In this document: positions 48,541 to 56,018 of the stretch, in pieces
Layout: the number at the start of each line of letters is the position of its first letter
Position numbering within the stretch: position 1 is the first letter of the stretch
From: an uncultured Draconibacterium sp.
GTDB taxonomy: Bacteria; Bacteroidota; Bacteroidia; Bacteroidales; Prolixibacteraceae
NCBI RefSeq assembly: GCF_963677155.1
Contig: NZ_OY781884.1
Span: 1,916,501-1,980,500 of the forward strand
DNA: 64,000 nt
Direction: 5' to 3'
Translations under genes and position numbers: made by a program
Notes under the pieces: generated by a model
What the model was told of the DNA's origin: nothing
Database searches by the model: none
What the model saw: only the letters and a program-made list of their open reading frames with translations

Positions 48541-49632
48541 TTATTCCTGATCCATAATTTCGGTTTGCATACGTACCGAATCTTCATGAATGAGTTGAAA
48601 AAGTATTTTCACAAACGTTTCATTTACGTCCATACTCTTCCCCAACTTTACGCGGTTTTCCATTAATTGTGTCCAACGGTTTATCTGAAGTGCGGTAACA
48701 TTATTGTCGCGTTTGTACTCGCCAATCTGTTTAACAATCTGCACACGCGAAGCCAGTGTTTCCAGCAATTCGGCATCAATGGCATCAATTCGGTTACGCA
48801 ACACATCCAATTGATTGTCAAAATCAGGATTGCCTGCATTCTCGTAACGAATAACCAACTTATCAAGCATTTTCCCCAAATCGGCCGGAGTAAGTTGCTG
48901 ACCAGCGTCACTCAATGCACACGAAGGGTCGCGATGTGATTCAATCATTAATCCTTCCATGCCCATATCAAAAGCCTTCTGCGAAATTTCTTGAAGATAT
49001 TCACGTGTTCCGGCAATGTGGCTTGGGTCGCAAATTACAGGCAAATTAGGCAGCAAACGCTTTAACTCTATAAAGGTTTTCCAGTTGGGATAGTTACGGT
49101 ATTTTGTTTCGCGGAATGGTGTGAAACCACGATGAATTCCAACAATGTTTTTAATACCTGCCTGATGGATTCGCTCAACAGCACCCATCCAAAGTTGTAC
49201 GTCTGGATTCACCGGGTTTTTAATCATTACCACGGTATCCGTTCCTTTCAATACATCGGCAATTTCCTGCACCACAAAAGGGCTGGCCGTAGAACGTGCT
49301 CCAATCCACAATACATCAAGCCCGGCTTTTAAAGCCTCTTCAGTGTGTTGTGCGTTGGCCACTTCTGTTCCTACCGGCAAATCGGTTTCTTCTTTTACCT
49401 GCTGCAGCCATTTCAAACCGATCGATCCAACGCCTTCAAACGACCCTGGGCGTGTTCTGGGTTTCCAAACTCCACCACGAAAAACAAATACGCGTTTGTC
49501 TTTTGCCAGCAAACGGGCTGTTTCCATGGTTTGTTCTTCCGTTTCAAGACTACATGGCCCTGAAATCAGCAGTGGATTGTCGATATTCGGTATCCACGCT
49601 TTAATCGGATTAATGTCTAATTTTAAAGTCAT
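48541..49632 (-). CDS. 3-deoxy-7-phosphoheptulonate synthase / chorismate mutase (fused)
   Basis: This bifunctional 363-residue enzyme enters (DAHP synthase) and branches (chorismate mutase) aromatic amino acid synthesis. The N-terminal part is a type I-beta (KDOPS-like) synthase: LLISGPCSLETEEQT, FRGGVWKPRTRPGSFEGVG, VMIKNPVNPDVQLWMGAVERI, CDPSHIAGTREYLQ. The C-terminal 90 residues are an AroQ chorismate mutase (LDVLRNRIDAIDAELLETLASRVQIVKQIGEYK). It follows tyrA by two bases in one operon, downstream of a Tyr/Phe leader. Confidence 0.94.
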   Translation of the reverse strand: MTLKLDINPIKAWIPNIDNPLLISGPCSLETEEQTMETARLLAKDKRVFVFRGGVWKPRTRPGSFEGVGSIGLKWLQQVKEETDLPVGTEVANAQHTEEALKAGLDVLWIGARSTASPFVVQEIADVLKGTDTVVMIKNPVNPDVQLWMGAVERIHQAGIKNIVGIHRGFTPFRETKYRNYPNWKTFIELKRLLPNLPVICDPSHIAGTREYLQEISQKAFDMGMEGLMIESHRDPSCALSDAGQQLTPADLGKMLDKLVIRYENAGNPDFDNQLDVLRNRIDAIDAELLETLASRVQIVKQIGEYKRDNNVTALQINRWTQLMENRVKLGKSMDVNETFVKILFQLIHEDSVRMQTEIMDQE

Positions 49633-49634
49633 GA

Positions 49635-50531
49635 TTATTTTGTATAAAGTTTTGTCAATTTCTCTTCATTCTTCAGAAAATGCGGATTCTTGCCTTCAAG
49701 AATTCCACGGATATTATTTGCATTGTTGATCAAATCAAGCATTTTATCGTCCTCTTCATTTTTCATACAATCGCGGAATTCGATAAGATGTTTGATATAT
49801 ACGTTCAGCGATTCAACAACGTATCGACGATTTTGTTGAAAAATAGGGTGCCACATAGTAGCCGAACTTTTTGCCAGACGAACCGTTGAACGAAAACCGC
49901 CACTAGCCAGATCGAAAATAATTTTACGCTCCTCTTTTGTCTGAACAGCATTAGCCAGCGCATAAGCAGCGGCGTGCGGCAAATGCGATACAAAAGCAGT
50001 GCTGTGGTCCTGTTCATCCGAAGTCATATAAGCAATGTCCATTCCCAGCACCTGAAACATCTTTTCGATTAAAGCGACATGTTGCGGACCGGAGTCTTCC
50101 TGGTCGCATAATATGGCAATTTTGCCTTTAAACAATCCTTCCAAAGCTGCTGTTGGCCCCGAGTCTTCGGTTCCCGACATGGGGTGACCCGGAACAAAGT
50201 TTTTTCTCCGTTTGTGGTTAGCCACCAAATCAACAATCACCTTTTTTGTCGATCCCATATCAGCCACTGTAGTTCCGCTGCTAATCAAATCGAGCACTTG
50301 CGGTAAAACCTCAAGTTCTTTGTTTACCGGAATAGCAATAATTACCAGATCGGTATCACTTACCCCGTTTTCCAGCGTTTCAATCCGGTCTACCAATCCA
50401 ATTTCTAAGGCTTTGGCAGCATTTTCTTCGCTGGCATCAACACCAATTAACTCGGTGGCAAACCCCGATTTTCGCAAATCGCGGGCAATTGATCCCCCAA
50501 TTAATCCAAGTCCTATTACTGTTGTCTTCAT
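49635..50531 (-). CDS. tyrA: Prephenate dehydrogenase
   Basis: TyrA oxidises prephenate to hydroxyphenylpyruvate for tyrosine. The 298-residue protein has the NAD fold TVIGLGLIGGSIARDLRKSG, VIIAIPVN, ADMGSTKKVIVDLV, GHPMSGTEDSGPTAALEGLF (catalytic His) and HLPHAAAYALANA. It is the first structural gene of the operon with DAHP synthase/chorismate mutase. A terminator lies 35-65 bases upstream of its start, preceded by an aromatic-rich leader peptide. Confidence 0.93.
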   Translation of the reverse strand: MKTTVIGLGLIGGSIARDLRKSGFATELIGVDASEENAAKALEIGLVDRIETLENGVSDTDLVIIAIPVNKELEVLPQVLDLISSGTTVADMGSTKKVIVDLVANHKRRKNFVPGHPMSGTEDSGPTAALEGLFKGKIAILCDQEDSGPQHVALIEKMFQVLGMDIAYMTSDEQDHSTAFVSHLPHAAAYALANAVQTKEERKIIFDLASGGFRSTVRLAKSSATMWHPIFQQNRRYVVESLNVYIKHLIEFRDCMKNEEDDKMLDLINNANNIRGILEGKNPHFLKNEEKLTKLYTK

Positions 50532-50565
50532 TTATTTATTATGTTTATTTACTTCACTTTTAATC

Positions 50566-50601
50566 ACAAAAAAAGGTCCCGAATTTTTCGAGACCTTTCT
50601 G
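50566..50601 (-). terminator. Attenuator-type terminator upstream of tyrA
   Basis: On the minus strand GGTCTCGAA / TTCGGGACC forms a 9-pair stem (one mismatch) with a 3-base loop, followed by seven T (A run 50568-50574). It stands between the leader peptide stop and tyrA, so it would stop the operon unless prevented from folding. Confidence 0.75.
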
Positions 50602-50628
50602 TAAAATATTTTTAATTTAAACAATACC

Positions 50629-50703
50629 CTACTTCCTGACCCCGTTTTCAGAACCATAATAAAAATAAAAGTAGAAATAGTTATTGTTAAAATTCTTTGT
50701 CAT
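50629..50703 (-). CDS. Tyr/Phe-rich leader peptide of the tyrA operon
   Basis: This is a 24-codon frame starting ATG 50703 and ending TAG 50629. Codons 9-16 read YFYFYFYY, and a further Phe is codon 5. It starts about 12 bases after the predicted transcription start and is followed by the terminator at 50566-50601 and then tyrA. This is the arrangement of classical amino-acid attenuators: ribosomes stalled on the aromatic codons when Phe or Tyr is short would change folding of the mRNA. No translation or regulation data can be read from sequence alone. Confidence 0.75.
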   Translation of the reverse strand: MTKNFNNNYFYFYFYYGSENGVRK

Positions 50704-50721
50704 TTCTTCAATTTCTGTCAA

Positions 50722-50729
50722 CAAATATA
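50722..50729 (-). promoter_or_regulatory. Promoter -7 element of the leader-tyrA operon
   Basis: TATATTTG on the minus strand fits TAnnTTTG and precedes the leader peptide ATG by 18 bases. Confidence 0.6.
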
Positions 50730-50797
50730 GAGATATATTTTTGAAATGAAATTTTTATCCTGTTTTTACTCTTAATTTTGAAGCTAATATTTAAAAT

Positions 50798-53302
50798 TTA
50801 GTTTTTAATTAACTTTTTTGTAAGCACAGTTTGCCCGTCTTGACTCACTTTCATTAGGTACATACCATTTCCGTATCCAGAGAGACTAATTTCATCGGAA
50901 TACTCGCCAATCACTCCTTGTTCTTCTGTGGTATATATTTTTTGTCCTACAACGTTATAAAGTTCAATTTGAAGTTGTGACTCTTTCTGAACAGCTGAAA
51001 TCTTCACCGTAATATTATCGGTAAAGGGATTTGGGTAAACGTTGATCTCTCCCGGCGACAACAAGGTAATATCGGCTGATACCGGTCGTTGAATCTCCAG
51101 ATTATCAATTGCCCACCCCCAGCCTGTTGCGTAAGGATCGGAATACAACCGGAAACGAATCAGAATCGTATCACCGGCAACAAAGTAATCGTTATCGGTT
51201 AAAGTGATCGATCGATTTACAAACCAGTCGGCCGTCCCCATGGTTTCGGAGTCTTGTCCACCTCTTGGTATTCCTTTTTCGTAATTTGTTTGCCACACAG
51301 GCTGATCTGACGAATCGTAACCATCGGCAAGTGGATACCAGTTGTCTCCGTTATTTTTACTGCCCTCAACAATCACATAATCGTAAAAATCGCTGTCGCC
51401 ATATACCGAAGTTGAGTCTCCCGGCTCAACCAAAACCACTTCCGTAAAGTTCATGGTTCCCTTATCTTTAATTATTATTGGTTTCTTCAGCAAGGTTGCA
51501 AACTCCAGTTCCCCGTTGTCAATTTCGGGCGCCGGATACGGATGTTGGCTATGCAGCGCTCCATTGTCGAAATCAGGAGCCGTATAAATATCAAAATCAG
51601 AAAGAAGGAAATCAGGTGTTTCTGAGTTAAAATCGTTTGAATAATAACTAACCGCACCAAAAATGTCCTCAATTTTAAACGAGAAATAGCTTTCTGCATC
51701 GGCTGGCAGTCTTGTGCTATTCGGAATGTTTGCTGCATCGATGGCAAAAATAGCATAAGTAATCTCATCTCCATCAGCTAAGGTATTCAGGTCAAAAGGG
51801 AAATTGCCAATATATTCATCTGCAAAATCTCTTTGCAATGCAAAAGGTTCCTGTGCTTCTCCATTGATAAAATATTGCACATAAGCTGTATCAACACCCA
51901 GATTATCGCTAATATCCGCAACCAACTGCTGCTCTTCATTCAATAATAGAAAATAATCAATTTCGTCGTGCGCAATAACAGGCTTTTGGGTATCGGTACC
52001 AACATGAATTGTATAAAACTCAGTTGATGCCAATGCAGGAGCAGTTCGCATGCGATTCATTGTGTCTTGTACTTCGATATAGTACGAGATTCTATCGGTA
52101 CCAGCTTCGGGCACATAAGTTACTGAATACGTTCCGTCACCTTCCGTATCAATTAAATTAAGCGTATCCGAATGGCTTTTAAACTCGTCTAATGAATATA
52201 TAACTTTAGGTGTTCCGGCTTTTACACCATAATCACTTTCAAACCATCCGCTAAAAACCAATGGTTTTAGTTCTTCAATATCTTTAACCTGATCGAAACG
52301 AATAAAGATATTCTTCCAACCAATATCGTCCATTATACCTTTGGTTATCGGGCCAGGATCATGAATGGCTTCGGCCATTCCGATGGCGTGGGTCATCAGC
52401 GAATTTTCACTTGTATGGCCATAGGTATTGTCATCCAAATGATAAATACTTGATCCGGCATTAAAAGTAAGCGGTGTATAAAGTTTTGGTTTAAGTCCAT
52501 CATTCCTGTTTTGTGCAATAGTACTATTCGCATACAGATCATTTGAAATGAGTGCTCTTTTCAACTCACTGCTAACATTTTCAAAAAATGAAGTATCAAC
52601 AAGCTGCTTTCCATCAATTTCTCCCTTTTCCACTAAAAGATCAAACGAAGTAGCTTCCCCAAACTCAATGTTTCCATAAGCTCCGTATTCGTTATTGCTA
52701 TCAACAAAAAGGAAGCCGGTAAATCCAAGACCGTGACCAATTTCGTGCATTACAACAGAGACCAAATCGTAAAGAGTATTCGGGCAATTCATATCAGTAC
52801 CATAATACCAGTCAATCTTGCTGCTAAAATTTGCGATCATATCGTAACGGCTCTCCCCATTCATCTCTCTTTTGGCAATTTTTTCGGCTATGGCAACCGG
52901 ATAATAACGTCCTTTGAAAGGAGCATCCTTAAAATCTTTGTAATAGGCTTCGGGACCGCAATTGCCCAAAACATTCGTTTCCAAATTGTCGCTCCAGTTA
53001 GCTTGCATCCGTATTGGCACATCCGATTCAATAATCGACTCCCAGATACTAACAGCATAGGCAAACGCCTCCTGCGCCTCGGGTGTAAAATCGTTATAGT
53101 CGACTATTATTTCTGATTTTGCTGCTCCGGCTGATTTCAGAAGAAACTCGGCAGGCGGCGCTATTCGCACCCTTTCGACTTCGCCTGATCCGTAACAAAC
53201 CGGATGTGGCACTTTTATGCTTTGGGTGTAACTCTTCATTTGTGCACTTGAGGATAGCGCTACAAGAATCAACAAACTTAACAATGTATAATACTTGCTC
53301 AT
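50798..53302 (-). CDS. Secreted zinc metallopeptidase with T9SS sorting domain (copy 1)
   Basis: This 834-residue protein has the signal peptide YYTLLSLLILVALSSSAQ and a metal site SVVMHEIGHGLGFTGFLF near residue 188 (HExxHxxGF). Two Ig-like regions lie in residues 350-530, and an adhesive MAM/immune-inhibitor-A-like region includes DYVIVEGSKNNGDNWYPLADGYDSS. The type A T9SS sorting domain VYPNPFTDNITVKIS...GNGMYLMKVSQDGQTVLTKKLIKN closes the protein. It should be exported to the cell surface or medium. It is a paralogue of the gene at 53571. Confidence 0.88.
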   Translation of the reverse strand: MSKYYTLLSLLILVALSSSAQMKSYTQSIKVPHPVCYGSGEVERVRIAPPAEFLLKSAGAAKSEIIVDYNDFTPEAQEAFAYAVSIWESIIESDVPIRMQANWSDNLETNVLGNCGPEAYYKDFKDAPFKGRYYPVAIAEKIAKREMNGESRYDMIANFSSKIDWYYGTDMNCPNTLYDLVSVVMHEIGHGLGFTGFLFVDSNNEYGAYGNIEFGEATSFDLLVEKGEIDGKQLVDTSFFENVSSELKRALISNDLYANSTIAQNRNDGLKPKLYTPLTFNAGSSIYHLDDNTYGHTSENSLMTHAIGMAEAIHDPGPITKGIMDDIGWKNIFIRFDQVKDIEELKPLVFSGWFESDYGVKAGTPKVIYSLDEFKSHSDTLNLIDTEGDGTYSVTYVPEAGTDRISYYIEVQDTMNRMRTAPALASTEFYTIHVGTDTQKPVIAHDEIDYFLLLNEEQQLVADISDNLGVDTAYVQYFINGEAQEPFALQRDFADEYIGNFPFDLNTLADGDEITYAIFAIDAANIPNSTRLPADAESYFSFKIEDIFGAVSYYSNDFNSETPDFLLSDFDIYTAPDFDNGALHSQHPYPAPEIDNGELEFATLLKKPIIIKDKGTMNFTEVVLVEPGDSTSVYGDSDFYDYVIVEGSKNNGDNWYPLADGYDSSDQPVWQTNYEKGIPRGGQDSETMGTADWFVNRSITLTDNDYFVAGDTILIRFRLYSDPYATGWGWAIDNLEIQRPVSADITLLSPGEINVYPNPFTDNITVKISAVQKESQLQIELYNVVGQKIYTTEEQGVIGEYSDEISLSGYGNGMYLMKVSQDGQTVLTKKLIKN

Positions 53303-53570: not shown

Positions 53571-56018
53571 CTAATTTTTTATGATTTTTTGAGTAATTGT
53601 ATTTAAATTATTATCTGATATACTTGCCATGTAAACTCCGGGAGCTACATTAGGAAGATCGATTTTTATTTTGCCTGAATAGGACGCATTGTAAAGTGTT
53701 TCGCGATGCACAGTTTTACCGTATAAGTCGGTAATCGTTACTTCAACATCATCTGCCACATCCGAGCGGAACCCGTCGATATAGATGCTGCTTTTAAACG
53801 GATTTGGGTAAATGCTTACCTCACTGGAAGCCAACTCTTCATTAACATCAGTGGTAACTTGCTGAATAGAGAGGTTATCGATAGCCCATCCCCAACCGGT
53901 AGTCGCTTTATCGGATGCTAACCGAAAACGAAAAATCACGGTGTCGCCTGCTTCAAAACCTGTGTTGTCAGTTAGGTTTATCGTTTGTTTCAGGAACATG
54001 TTCTCTGCTCCGGATGCCTGCGACACCGCACTTTTTAACGAACCTGTAAATTGCGAACTCCAAAGATCATCAACACTTGAGTCGTAACCATCTGTAATAG
54101 GTAACCAACTTTTTCCATTGTTTTTACTTGCCTCTACGATTACAAAATCCCAAAACTGCTCTTCGGTATAAACTGTTCCTTCTACGCCCGGTTCTACCAA
54201 AACTACCTCATCAAAACTCATTAGACCATTTTCTTCAAGAACAATCGGATATTTTAACTGGGCAAGCAGGTTGTATTTTTGATTATCGGTTTGTGATTCA
54301 GGATATGGATTTATAGTGTGCAAATTACCACTTGTGAAACCAGCCGGTAAGGTTACTTCAAAATCAGAAATTTCGAAATCGGTATTTGGCGAATCAAAAT
54401 TATTAAAGTACCCAGTCAATGCTTCACTTGCTTCAAATACTGAAACGTTATAATATCCACTTGCTGGCATACGGCGTTGGTTCTCTCGCGATGTATTGTC
54501 GATAGCTACAATGCTATACTCAACAACATCGTCGCTAAATAATTGAGTAGGAAATTCGAGTTTCCCGGCGTAATTATCTGCACCCTTTTTTGATAAAATA
54601 AATGGTTCCTGATCTTGTCCGTTAATACGGTACTGAACCTCAACTCTGTTTATTCCAACATTATCGCTTGCAACAGCTGCAAAGTTCATTACAGGGCTAT
54701 TTGCGTTTACCAGTTTTTCCGGATTATGCTGCAATACCGGTGGATAATAGTCGTCGCCTATGCGGAAACTAAGTTTTTGCTCCGGTGCACGTTCAGGATA
54801 GCTGTACACTACATTTCCTGTAGTTTTTGCCTCGTAGTAATAAAATATTTTACCAGTTGTGTTATTCAGTGGTAAATCTCCTTCAAACTGATTTGTATTG
54901 CTATTGTAGGCAAGACTTACTGTTTGTGATGTTGCAAAGTTATCGGTTGAAAAAGTGATTTTTACGGATGATTGATCGATATCCATTTCGCCTCCTACCT
55001 CAACAAACACAGGAAGTTTCTCACATGATTCTTCGAAATCCTTAATCTCGAACCCATCAAAACTAACCGACTTCCATCCCAACTGTGCCAAAACATCCAT
55101 TGTTTTATCACCCGGGTAATGAATGGCTTCTCCTCTACTAATAAAAGGAGTCATCAATGCGTTAGCATCTCCCCCGCCAAATTCATTTTCAGGATAATGG
55201 TAAATACTTGTTCCAATGTTCCAGCTTTGAGGAGCATATACTTTTACCGATTCAGAATTACCCTGGTTTTTCAATACAAGGTTATTCGAAAGCAATTGCT
55301 CTGCAAGTGTTGCTGACGGACGTGAGAATAAATTCTCATCGGCAATTTGTTCGTTTTGCTGATTATAAACATATACATCGTAAATACTAGGAGCATTCGC
55401 GCTGTTGTCAATAATTCCCTGATTGTTTTCCACACCGAAGAAACCAATAAATCCCAAACCATGTACCAATTCGTGTAACACAACGGTTACAAAATCGTAC
55501 TCGTTTGACGGACAATCTCCGTTGGTGCCAAAATACCAGTTAATTGAGCTGCTAAACGTACACTCAATATCGGCTTCTGTTCCGTTCAATTCTTTTTCGG
55601 CAAGTTTTTCAGCCAGCGCAACAGGATAATATACATTACCGAGTCTTGCTCCTTTAAAATTACGGTACATACTGCCTGGTGCACTACTCGCCAATACATT
55701 ATTTCCCAACCCGTTCCATGTTGCTCGTACTTTAACCGGTACGGGCGACGAAATCAAGTTCTCGTAAATTGATACGGCGTACAAAAATGCAGGTTTTGCA
55801 TTTTCAGGAAAGTTCACAAACTCCACCTGAAAATCGGAATTTAATACCGATCCGGATTTTAAGTTTGTTTCATGGGGTGCAATAAATGATTTTTTACTCT
55901 CTTCGGAAGCAATGTTAATCGGGGCATTGATCTTTTTGATCCTTTCCTGATCGGATTGCTCAGCCCTGGCATAAAAAGCGCCAACTAATACCAGGGCGGT
56001 AATAATTAAATGTCTCAT
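53571..56018 (-). CDS. Secreted zinc metallopeptidase with T9SS sorting domain (copy 2)
   Basis: This 815-residue paralogue of the gene at 50798 has signal peptide LIITALVLVGAFYARAE and metal site VVLHELVHGLGFIGFFG near residue 181. It has the same inner layout with Ig-like regions and an adhesion region (DFVIVEASKNNGKSWLPITDGYDSS), and the T9SS type A end SIYPNPFKSSIYIDG...APGVYMASISDNNLNTITQKIIKN. It is followed by the 37-residue membrane protein. The 1-kb region upstream contains repeated GGGTTTGTA words. Confidence 0.88.
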   Translation of the reverse strand: MRHLIITALVLVGAFYARAEQSDQERIKKINAPINIASEESKKSFIAPHETNLKSGSVLNSDFQVEFVNFPENAKPAFLYAVSIYENLISSPVPVKVRATWNGLGNNVLASSAPGSMYRNFKGARLGNVYYPVALAEKLAEKELNGTEADIECTFSSSINWYFGTNGDCPSNEYDFVTVVLHELVHGLGFIGFFGVENNQGIIDNSANAPSIYDVYVYNQQNEQIADENLFSRPSATLAEQLLSNNLVLKNQGNSESVKVYAPQSWNIGTSIYHYPENEFGGGDANALMTPFISRGEAIHYPGDKTMDVLAQLGWKSVSFDGFEIKDFEESCEKLPVFVEVGGEMDIDQSSVKITFSTDNFATSQTVSLAYNSNTNQFEGDLPLNNTTGKIFYYYEAKTTGNVVYSYPERAPEQKLSFRIGDDYYPPVLQHNPEKLVNANSPVMNFAAVASDNVGINRVEVQYRINGQDQEPFILSKKGADNYAGKLEFPTQLFSDDVVEYSIVAIDNTSRENQRRMPASGYYNVSVFEASEALTGYFNNFDSPNTDFEISDFEVTLPAGFTSGNLHTINPYPESQTDNQKYNLLAQLKYPIVLEENGLMSFDEVVLVEPGVEGTVYTEEQFWDFVIVEASKNNGKSWLPITDGYDSSVDDLWSSQFTGSLKSAVSQASGAENMFLKQTINLTDNTGFEAGDTVIFRFRLASDKATTGWGWAIDNLSIQQVTTDVNEELASSEVSIYPNPFKSSIYIDGFRSDVADDVEVTITDLYGKTVHRETLYNASYSGKIKIDLPNVAPGVYMASISDNNLNTITQKIIKN

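Follow-up and report, generated by a model that had tools for sequence, protein, structure and literature searches.

A predicted ribosome-mediated attenuator, with an antiterminator strand that copies the terminator, upstream of tyrA in Draconibacterium and its relatives

The MTKNFNNNYFYFYFYYGSENGVRK region upstream of tyrA is, with a probability that we put at about 0.9, a ribosome-mediated transcription attenuator. In this reading, which comes from sequence comparison and folding, a strand within the leader ORF (X) and the 5' arm of the terminator (T5) form an X:T5 switch that would control tyrA and the DAHP synthase/chorismate mutase gene. The charged tRNAs that it senses are most likely those for Tyr and Phe, plus that for Trp in most relatives within the family.

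Layout of the tyrA leader

The window (the whole 64,000-nucleotide stretch of DNA that was analysed) presents on its minus strand a TAnnTTTG box, an aromatic leader ORF, an intrinsic terminator, tyrA and a DAHP synthase/chorismate mutase gene, in that order. An ORF rich in codons for the products of the pathway and an intrinsic terminator, two features of a leader-peptide attenuator, are thus both found before the first gene. The features are as follows.

50722..50729, minus strand: Bacteroidota -7 promoter box TATATTTG (TAnnTTTG, consensus from PMC9723704)
50629..50703, minus strand: leader ORF MTKNFNNNYFYFYFYYGSENGVRK, 24 codons from an ATG start, with aromatic ORFs at the equivalent site in family loci
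50682..50688, minus strand: strand 1, AACAAUA, codons 5' of the run, with partner UAUUGUU past the stop codon (90.2% of alignment cells paired)
50656..50679, minus strand: control codons, run YFYFYFYY, codons 9-16 (read from the sequence)
50638..50644, minus strand: putative antiterminator strand X, CGGGGUC, within the ORF, mimicking the 3' arm of the terminator (from comparison)
50623..50632, minus strand: strand 2, GUAGGGUAUU, which includes the stop codon (83.4% of cells paired with strand 3)
50620..50626, minus strand: UAUUGUU, 3' partner of strand 1 (90.2% of cells paired)
50601..50610, minus strand: strand 3, AAUAUUUUAC, 3' partner of strand 2 (83.4% of cells paired)
50589..50595, minus strand: core of the terminator 5' arm (T5), GGUCUCG, common to terminator and antiterminator (alignment pairing)
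50568..50581, minus strand: terminator 3' arm CGGGACC and U tract (hairpin scan, alignment pairing)
49635..50531, minus strand: tyrA, prephenate dehydrogenase, ATG at 50531 (NF006307, above cut-off)
48541..49632, minus strand: DAHP synthase/chorismate mutase (both domains match, below the curated whole-protein cut-offs)

The promoter-like TATATTTG, the 24-codon frame with its YFYFYFYY run at codons 9-16, the terminator and tyrA all lie where the first-pass annotation had placed them. Among ORFs of 8-60 amino acids on both strands of the window (ATG, GTG or TTG starts), MTKNFNNNYFYFYFYYGSENGVRK is the only one with at least seven aromatics in eight residues. An alternative in-frame TTG start gives a 31-codon version of the leader; the ATG is the likelier start because this upstream TTG is the end of the promoter box. 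Spacers of 11 and 6 nt separate X from the last run codon and from the stop codon, respectively. The hairpin at 50600-50570 is the sole terminator-like one in the 701 bases scanned (shuffles have a mean of 0.3), and bases 50660-50565 fold far better than shuffled sequence (z -4.63).

Two adjacent large ORFs, 50798-53302 and 53571-56018, resemble related secreted metalloproteases by eye, and the former bears a T9SS sorting domain. The nearest named relatives by TyrA are Draconibacterium species, which are 96-98% identical.

Conservation and covariation within the family

Of the 37 genomes of the genus, 36 had a TyrA match at E <= 0.001 (only a weak partial one in two cases), and of 127 family genomes 117 had one at E <= 1e-30. 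Our family set comprises 110 loci, one per genome, from 23 genera, with the window's own locus counted in. An aromatic leader frame 5' of tyrA and a DAHP synthase/chorismate mutase homologue are present in all 110 of the loci examined, and two loci beyond the set (L221 and L222) also carry the unit. Single loci depart from the common form: a contig end cuts L056 before the start of the ORF, the run of L055 is broken into three plus three aromatics, and the unit of L050 lies farther from tyrA than our first scan reached. The ORF stops before strand X in L071, L076, L082 and L110, with X just beyond the stop codon, a position that a terminating ribosome might still cover.

Run residues over the 110 loci are overwhelmingly aromatic (Y 409, F 344, W 75, others 22), with Trp within the run in 75 loci. 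Their order and identity vary across the family (YFYFYFYY, FYYWFYYF, FYFWFGY and others), as do the flanks. In the 70 nt 5' of the leader ATG, 102 of 109 family loci have a TAnnTTTG box, compared to 3 of 109 for a control stretch, and its position is -26/-27 in 57 of those 102. A strict terminator test was passed in 95/110 loci, and the remaining 15 show, by eye, a mismatch-interrupted hairpin followed by a T run. In eleven loci of one genus, g2 (L042, L050, L053, L054, L057, L058, L061, L063, L066, L067 and L069) the terminator stem is mismatched and fails the strict test, and the 5' arm still pairs well with X, as if the antiterminator constrained this arm more than the terminator does.

The first-pass annotation had read the region as an attenuator with a Tyr/Phe leader peptide, placed before tyrA and the DAHP synthase/chorismate mutase gene, and had staked that reading on the presence of an aromatic-rich frame at this place in related genomes. 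The conservation described above supports the claim, which can also be extended to Trp, present in most family runs, and to similar units in other families and orders.

Strand X has the consensus CGGGRUC in most rows of the alignment and reads CGGGGUC in the window (50644-50638). It copies the terminator 3' arm, CGGGACC, and is complementary to the 5' arm, GGUCUCG (50595-50589). In a pairing alignment of 53 of the 110 family loci, picked for diversity, the X:T5 helix is paired in 99.2% of cells. Four of its seven pairs are changed on both sides somewhere in the alignment, a count reached by 29 of 500 shuffles; double-changed cells number 19 versus 4.6 in shuffles, which none of the 500 reaches. 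Sliding the partner of X by 1-3 columns lowers the paired cells to 9.8-62.3%. When changes are placed on the TyrA tree, X:T5 has four same-branch double changes versus 0.30 expected, three of which keep the pair, and only 2 of 23 one-sided changes break pairing.

The terminator helix itself is paired in 93.3% of cells across the same 53 loci. Strand 1 pairs with UAUUGUU (hereafter 1:2) in 90.2% of cells, and on the TyrA tree this helix has five same-branch double changes versus 2.13 expected, all of them kept, with 30 of 63 one-sided changes breaking it. For strands 2 and 3 (GUAGGGUAUU and AAUAUUUUAC; 2:3) the paired fraction is 83.4%, eight same-branch double changes compare with 3.89 expected, three are kept, and 46 of 101 one-sided changes break the pair. 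Judged by sequence comparison, support thus appears strong for X:T5, moderate for 1:2 and weak for 2:3.

An antiterminator that excludes the terminator is accordingly backed by covariation, though the window taken alone is weak: X:T5 scores -6.2 kcal/mol there and 19 of 50 shuffles are equally good, so that the case for this helix is a comparative one. Over the 110 loci, the mean for X:T5 is -11.5 kcal/mol, versus -7.4 for shuffles and -10.1 for partners taken from other genera. The cognate pairing is better than the median non-cognate pairing in 72/110 loci, a weak separation that follows from the conservation of the arms. At most 2 of 50 shuffles match X:T5 in 48/110 loci; at the other end, the number of equally good shuffles out of 50 is 30 for L071, 21 for L082 and 29 for L107.

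A different antiterminator had been proposed in the first-pass annotation, namely pairing of TTCTGAAAA (50653-50645) with TTTTACAGAA (50606-50597). Both segments lie at these positions, but over 53 relatives the pairing forms in only 59.2% of cells (274 of 463, versus 99.2% for X:T5); it is not conserved, and we reject it as the antiterminator. The accompanying worry that the pairing touches only the A flank of the stem is removed, because the conserved antiterminator pairs the next codons, CGGGGTC, with the core at 50595-50589. The earlier interpretation thus stands for the kind of regulator and falls for the pairing that it proposed.

Proposed switch and competing explanations

We modelled the fold of the nascent RNA in different ribosome states, with the ribosome masked and RNA polymerase just past the 5' arm, for 109 loci (L056 left out). 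The mean number of X:T5 pairs is 6.71 with the ribosome stalled mid-run (at least four pairs in 97/109 loci), 6.80 with it stalled at the last run codon (100/109), 3.57 in ribosome-free RNA (49/109) and 0.03 with the ribosome at the stop codon (0/109). The corresponding values for the window are 3.3 mid-run, 6.5 at the last run codon, 0.0 in free RNA and 0.0 at the stop, and its segment from X to T5 folds as a composite antiterminator of -10.9 kcal/mol. Five loci (L003, L004, L005, L055 and L107) are modelled with fewer than two X:T5 pairs when the ribosome is stalled mid-run.

Once the 3' arm is present, the terminator is favoured at equilibrium, with the exception of 5/109 loci when stalled mid-run. 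We thus reject equilibrium folding as proof of switching, and the switch must be kinetic. Switching is kinetic in classical attenuators as well. A ribosome covers about 15 nt on each side of its P site, so starvation at the last run codon should halt it a little before X, and at the stop codon it should lie over X.

These elements suggest the following sequence of events. Transcription would start just past the TAnnTTTG box, and a ribosome would soon load on the leader ORF. When aromatic amino acids are ample, the model predicts that the ribosome reaches the stop codon and covers X and strand 2, and the terminator forms. When charged tRNA is scarce, the ribosome would stall in the run, leaving X free and strand 1 masked; with the footprint given above, a ribosome starved at the final codon of the run would have its front edge at about the start of X. 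Strand 2 would then pair with strand 3 and X with the terminator 5' arm, pairings that comparison supports, and the 5' arm could not join the terminator in time, so that RNA polymerase would presumably read through. In RNA that carries no ribosome, strand 1 may pair with strand 2 and termination may tend to win, a step with moderate support; 49/109 loci still form at least four X:T5 pairs in this state.

Other explanations of the same features have to be weighed. The hairpin could simply serve the secreted metalloprotease gene upstream as its 3' terminator, with the ORF there by chance. In the window the upstream gene does share the strand of the unit, as it does in 95/110 family loci according to a crude longest-frame test, and a metalloprotease homologue is found at 65/110. 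This explanation is nonetheless very improbable: the promoter box stands 5' of the ORF at 102/109 loci, the unit is also present in 14 loci with an upstream neighbour on the opposite strand (longest-frame test), other families and orders have it 5' of pheA or an aminotransferase gene, and X covaries with the terminator arm. The length and nearly pure aromatic composition of the runs would also suit arrest of the ribosome by the poly-aromatic nascent peptide, in the style of SecM and TnaC, rather than starvation at the codons, and exit-tunnel effects of the peptide are compatible with the sequence. Yet residue order, residue identity and flanks vary freely, a pattern that codon sensing predicts and a fixed arrest motif does not, and we consider arrest improbable.

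Control acting only on tyrA translation or RNA stability, with the hairpin in a structural role, seems to us the least probable of the three, at a chance close to negligible. The window has 36 nt between the U tract and the start of tyrA, and leader genes near a structural gene have been proposed, in a passage of PMC4833913, to help reinitiation. Against such control are the T run that follows the hairpin in family loci, the gap between unit and tyrA, which ranges from 7 to 249 nt across the family, and the difference in first gene outside it.

Occurrence in Bacteroidia and relation to known leaders

Units of the kind that we assign to ribosome-mediated attenuation are also found outside the family. 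An order-level TyrA search matched 41 of 198 genomes at E <= 1e-30, three of them of the window's own family, and our order-level claims cover these matched genomes. The outside-family set comprised 46 tyrA loci (38 of the order plus 8 named ones), in which a strict scan required an ATG ORF of 8-45 codons with at least six aromatics in eight residues and a terminator within 130 nt. This identified 48 units 5' of tyrA in 39/46 loci; the antisense strand of these 201,455 nt yielded no unit. Two of the loci, L158 and L184, share a contig as judged by its length, which leaves 38/45 distinct loci with units. Of the seven loci without a unit, two hold only 1,414 and 135 nt of upstream sequence, and some of the seven have weaker candidates. 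X:T5 complementarity exceeds that of 200 shuffles at p <= 0.05 in 42/48 units (41/47 distinct), with a mean of -14.9 kcal/mol versus -6.9 for shuffled sequence. Tandem units stand 5' of tyrA in nine loci by the strict scan (L157, L187, L188, L199, L212, L213, L214, L217 and L219).

The next gene, read by eye for 12 outside-family units, is PheA-like in eight and an aminotransferase gene in two, with no long frame in the last two; Pfam agrees for the four of these ten identifications that were checked. In a set of 29 class pheA loci, drawn from 33 matches in 119 genomes and with the window genome's own pheA not counted, a unit precedes pheA in 13, versus 1 of 26 phylum loci outside the class and 0 on the antisense strand. 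The window genome's own pheA (L031) lies apart from tyrA and the scan found no aromatic leader before it; in other families the leader often precedes pheA. The leader may have stayed with, or moved to, tyrA in this genome.

Other operons of the same genome have leaders of their own. Two serial Trp leaders, MQKINTIWLPWWGLLT and MRTNNNIWWWRSNFLQIS, precede trpE (L223), each with a hairpin and T run behind it as judged by eye and by folding (the hairpin scanner lists one of the two), and the locus has a single Trp_leader match of 24 bits, below the gathering score of 41. Upstream of hisG (L279) is a His-rich leader, MTGRTLHHGHHWKNQPSGRL, followed by a terminator-like hairpin and T run, and upstream of leuA (L281/L284) a Leu/Ile-rich leader, MTKNINISILNLLIGILLLTRKK, followed by a hairpin and T run (both by eye). 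The scans used found no Thr/Ile leader for the thr operon.

Neither the window nor 20 sampled related loci yielded an Rfam match at the gathering score. The best match of the leader region is Phe_leader (RF01859), at 27.1 bits versus a gathering score of 55 (E 0.0097) and thus below threshold. Bacteroid-trp (RF01692) has no gathering match in the window or the 20 loci and is absent from matches up to E 5 in 50540-50780; T-box has no gathering match in the window and is absent from the six matches up to E 5 in that interval. The enterobacterial pheL layout consists of a short ORF with Phe codons, an intrinsic terminator and a mutually exclusive antiterminator. The MTKNFNNNYFYFYFYYGSENGVRK unit resembles pheL/RF01859 in all three elements and differs in its mixed Tyr/Phe(/Trp) run, its sequence, its operon content, its TAnnTTTG promoter and the location of its antiterminator strand, which follows the run directly within the ORF. 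Bacteroid-trp is a Trp-codon leader and differs from the unit here in reading Trp rather than Tyr/Phe. Table 1 of PMC2864571 lists it as a Bacteroidetes cis-regulatory RNA.

Further parallels come from published work. A 2021 transcriptome study of Flavobacterium psychrophilum describes strong clues for leader-peptide attenuation before amino-acid operons and a 5' element before pheA that is conserved in other Flavobacteriaceae and has no Rfam hit (PMC9723704). This element shares phylum, pathway, conservation beyond the species and the lack of an Rfam hit with our unit, whereas the account in section 19 of that study gives no antiterminator, tyrA-led operon or tandem layout. A map of B. thetaiotaomicron includes sORFs described as reminiscent of attenuation (PMC7366714). 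Corynebacterium and Streptomyces trp attenuators are described as having complementary triples common to antiterminator and terminator (PMC1262725), the same principle as X, in which one strand mimics another, but with Trp codons, in another phylum and with other sequences. The uORFC-13-1 motif before Acholeplasma aroF similarly combines a uORF coding for at least one Phe with a terminator before a DAHP synthase gene, in an unrelated phylum and with another structure (PMC8632094). Ribosome-mediated attenuation, including strand mimicry, is thus an already known kind of regulator. The literature that we searched holds no prior account of the X antiterminator, of the spread through the class, of a run that pools Phe, Tyr and Trp or of the tandem layout, and an earlier description may exist elsewhere.

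Taken across the class Bacteroidia, we lean towards the view that a compact attenuator generally controls how aromatic amino acids are made. In it, an antiterminator strand in the last leader codons would copy the terminator 3' arm and one leader would pool the supply of Phe, Tyr and Trp; several lineages would have two serial units, which should multiply readthrough probabilities and sharpen the response. With this locus, the control of aromatic amino acid synthesis in Bacteroidia, on which we found little literature, gains a concrete candidate switch at the RNA level that can be tested. If our reading is true, RNA polymerase does not outpace the leading ribosome in this group, whose mRNAs are described as lacking Shine-Dalgarno sequences (PMC6847099). 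The unit would serve as a natural assay for transcription-translation coupling, because the switch needs the first ribosome close behind RNA polymerase, and the serial units in relatives would make the gain of serial attenuators measurable.
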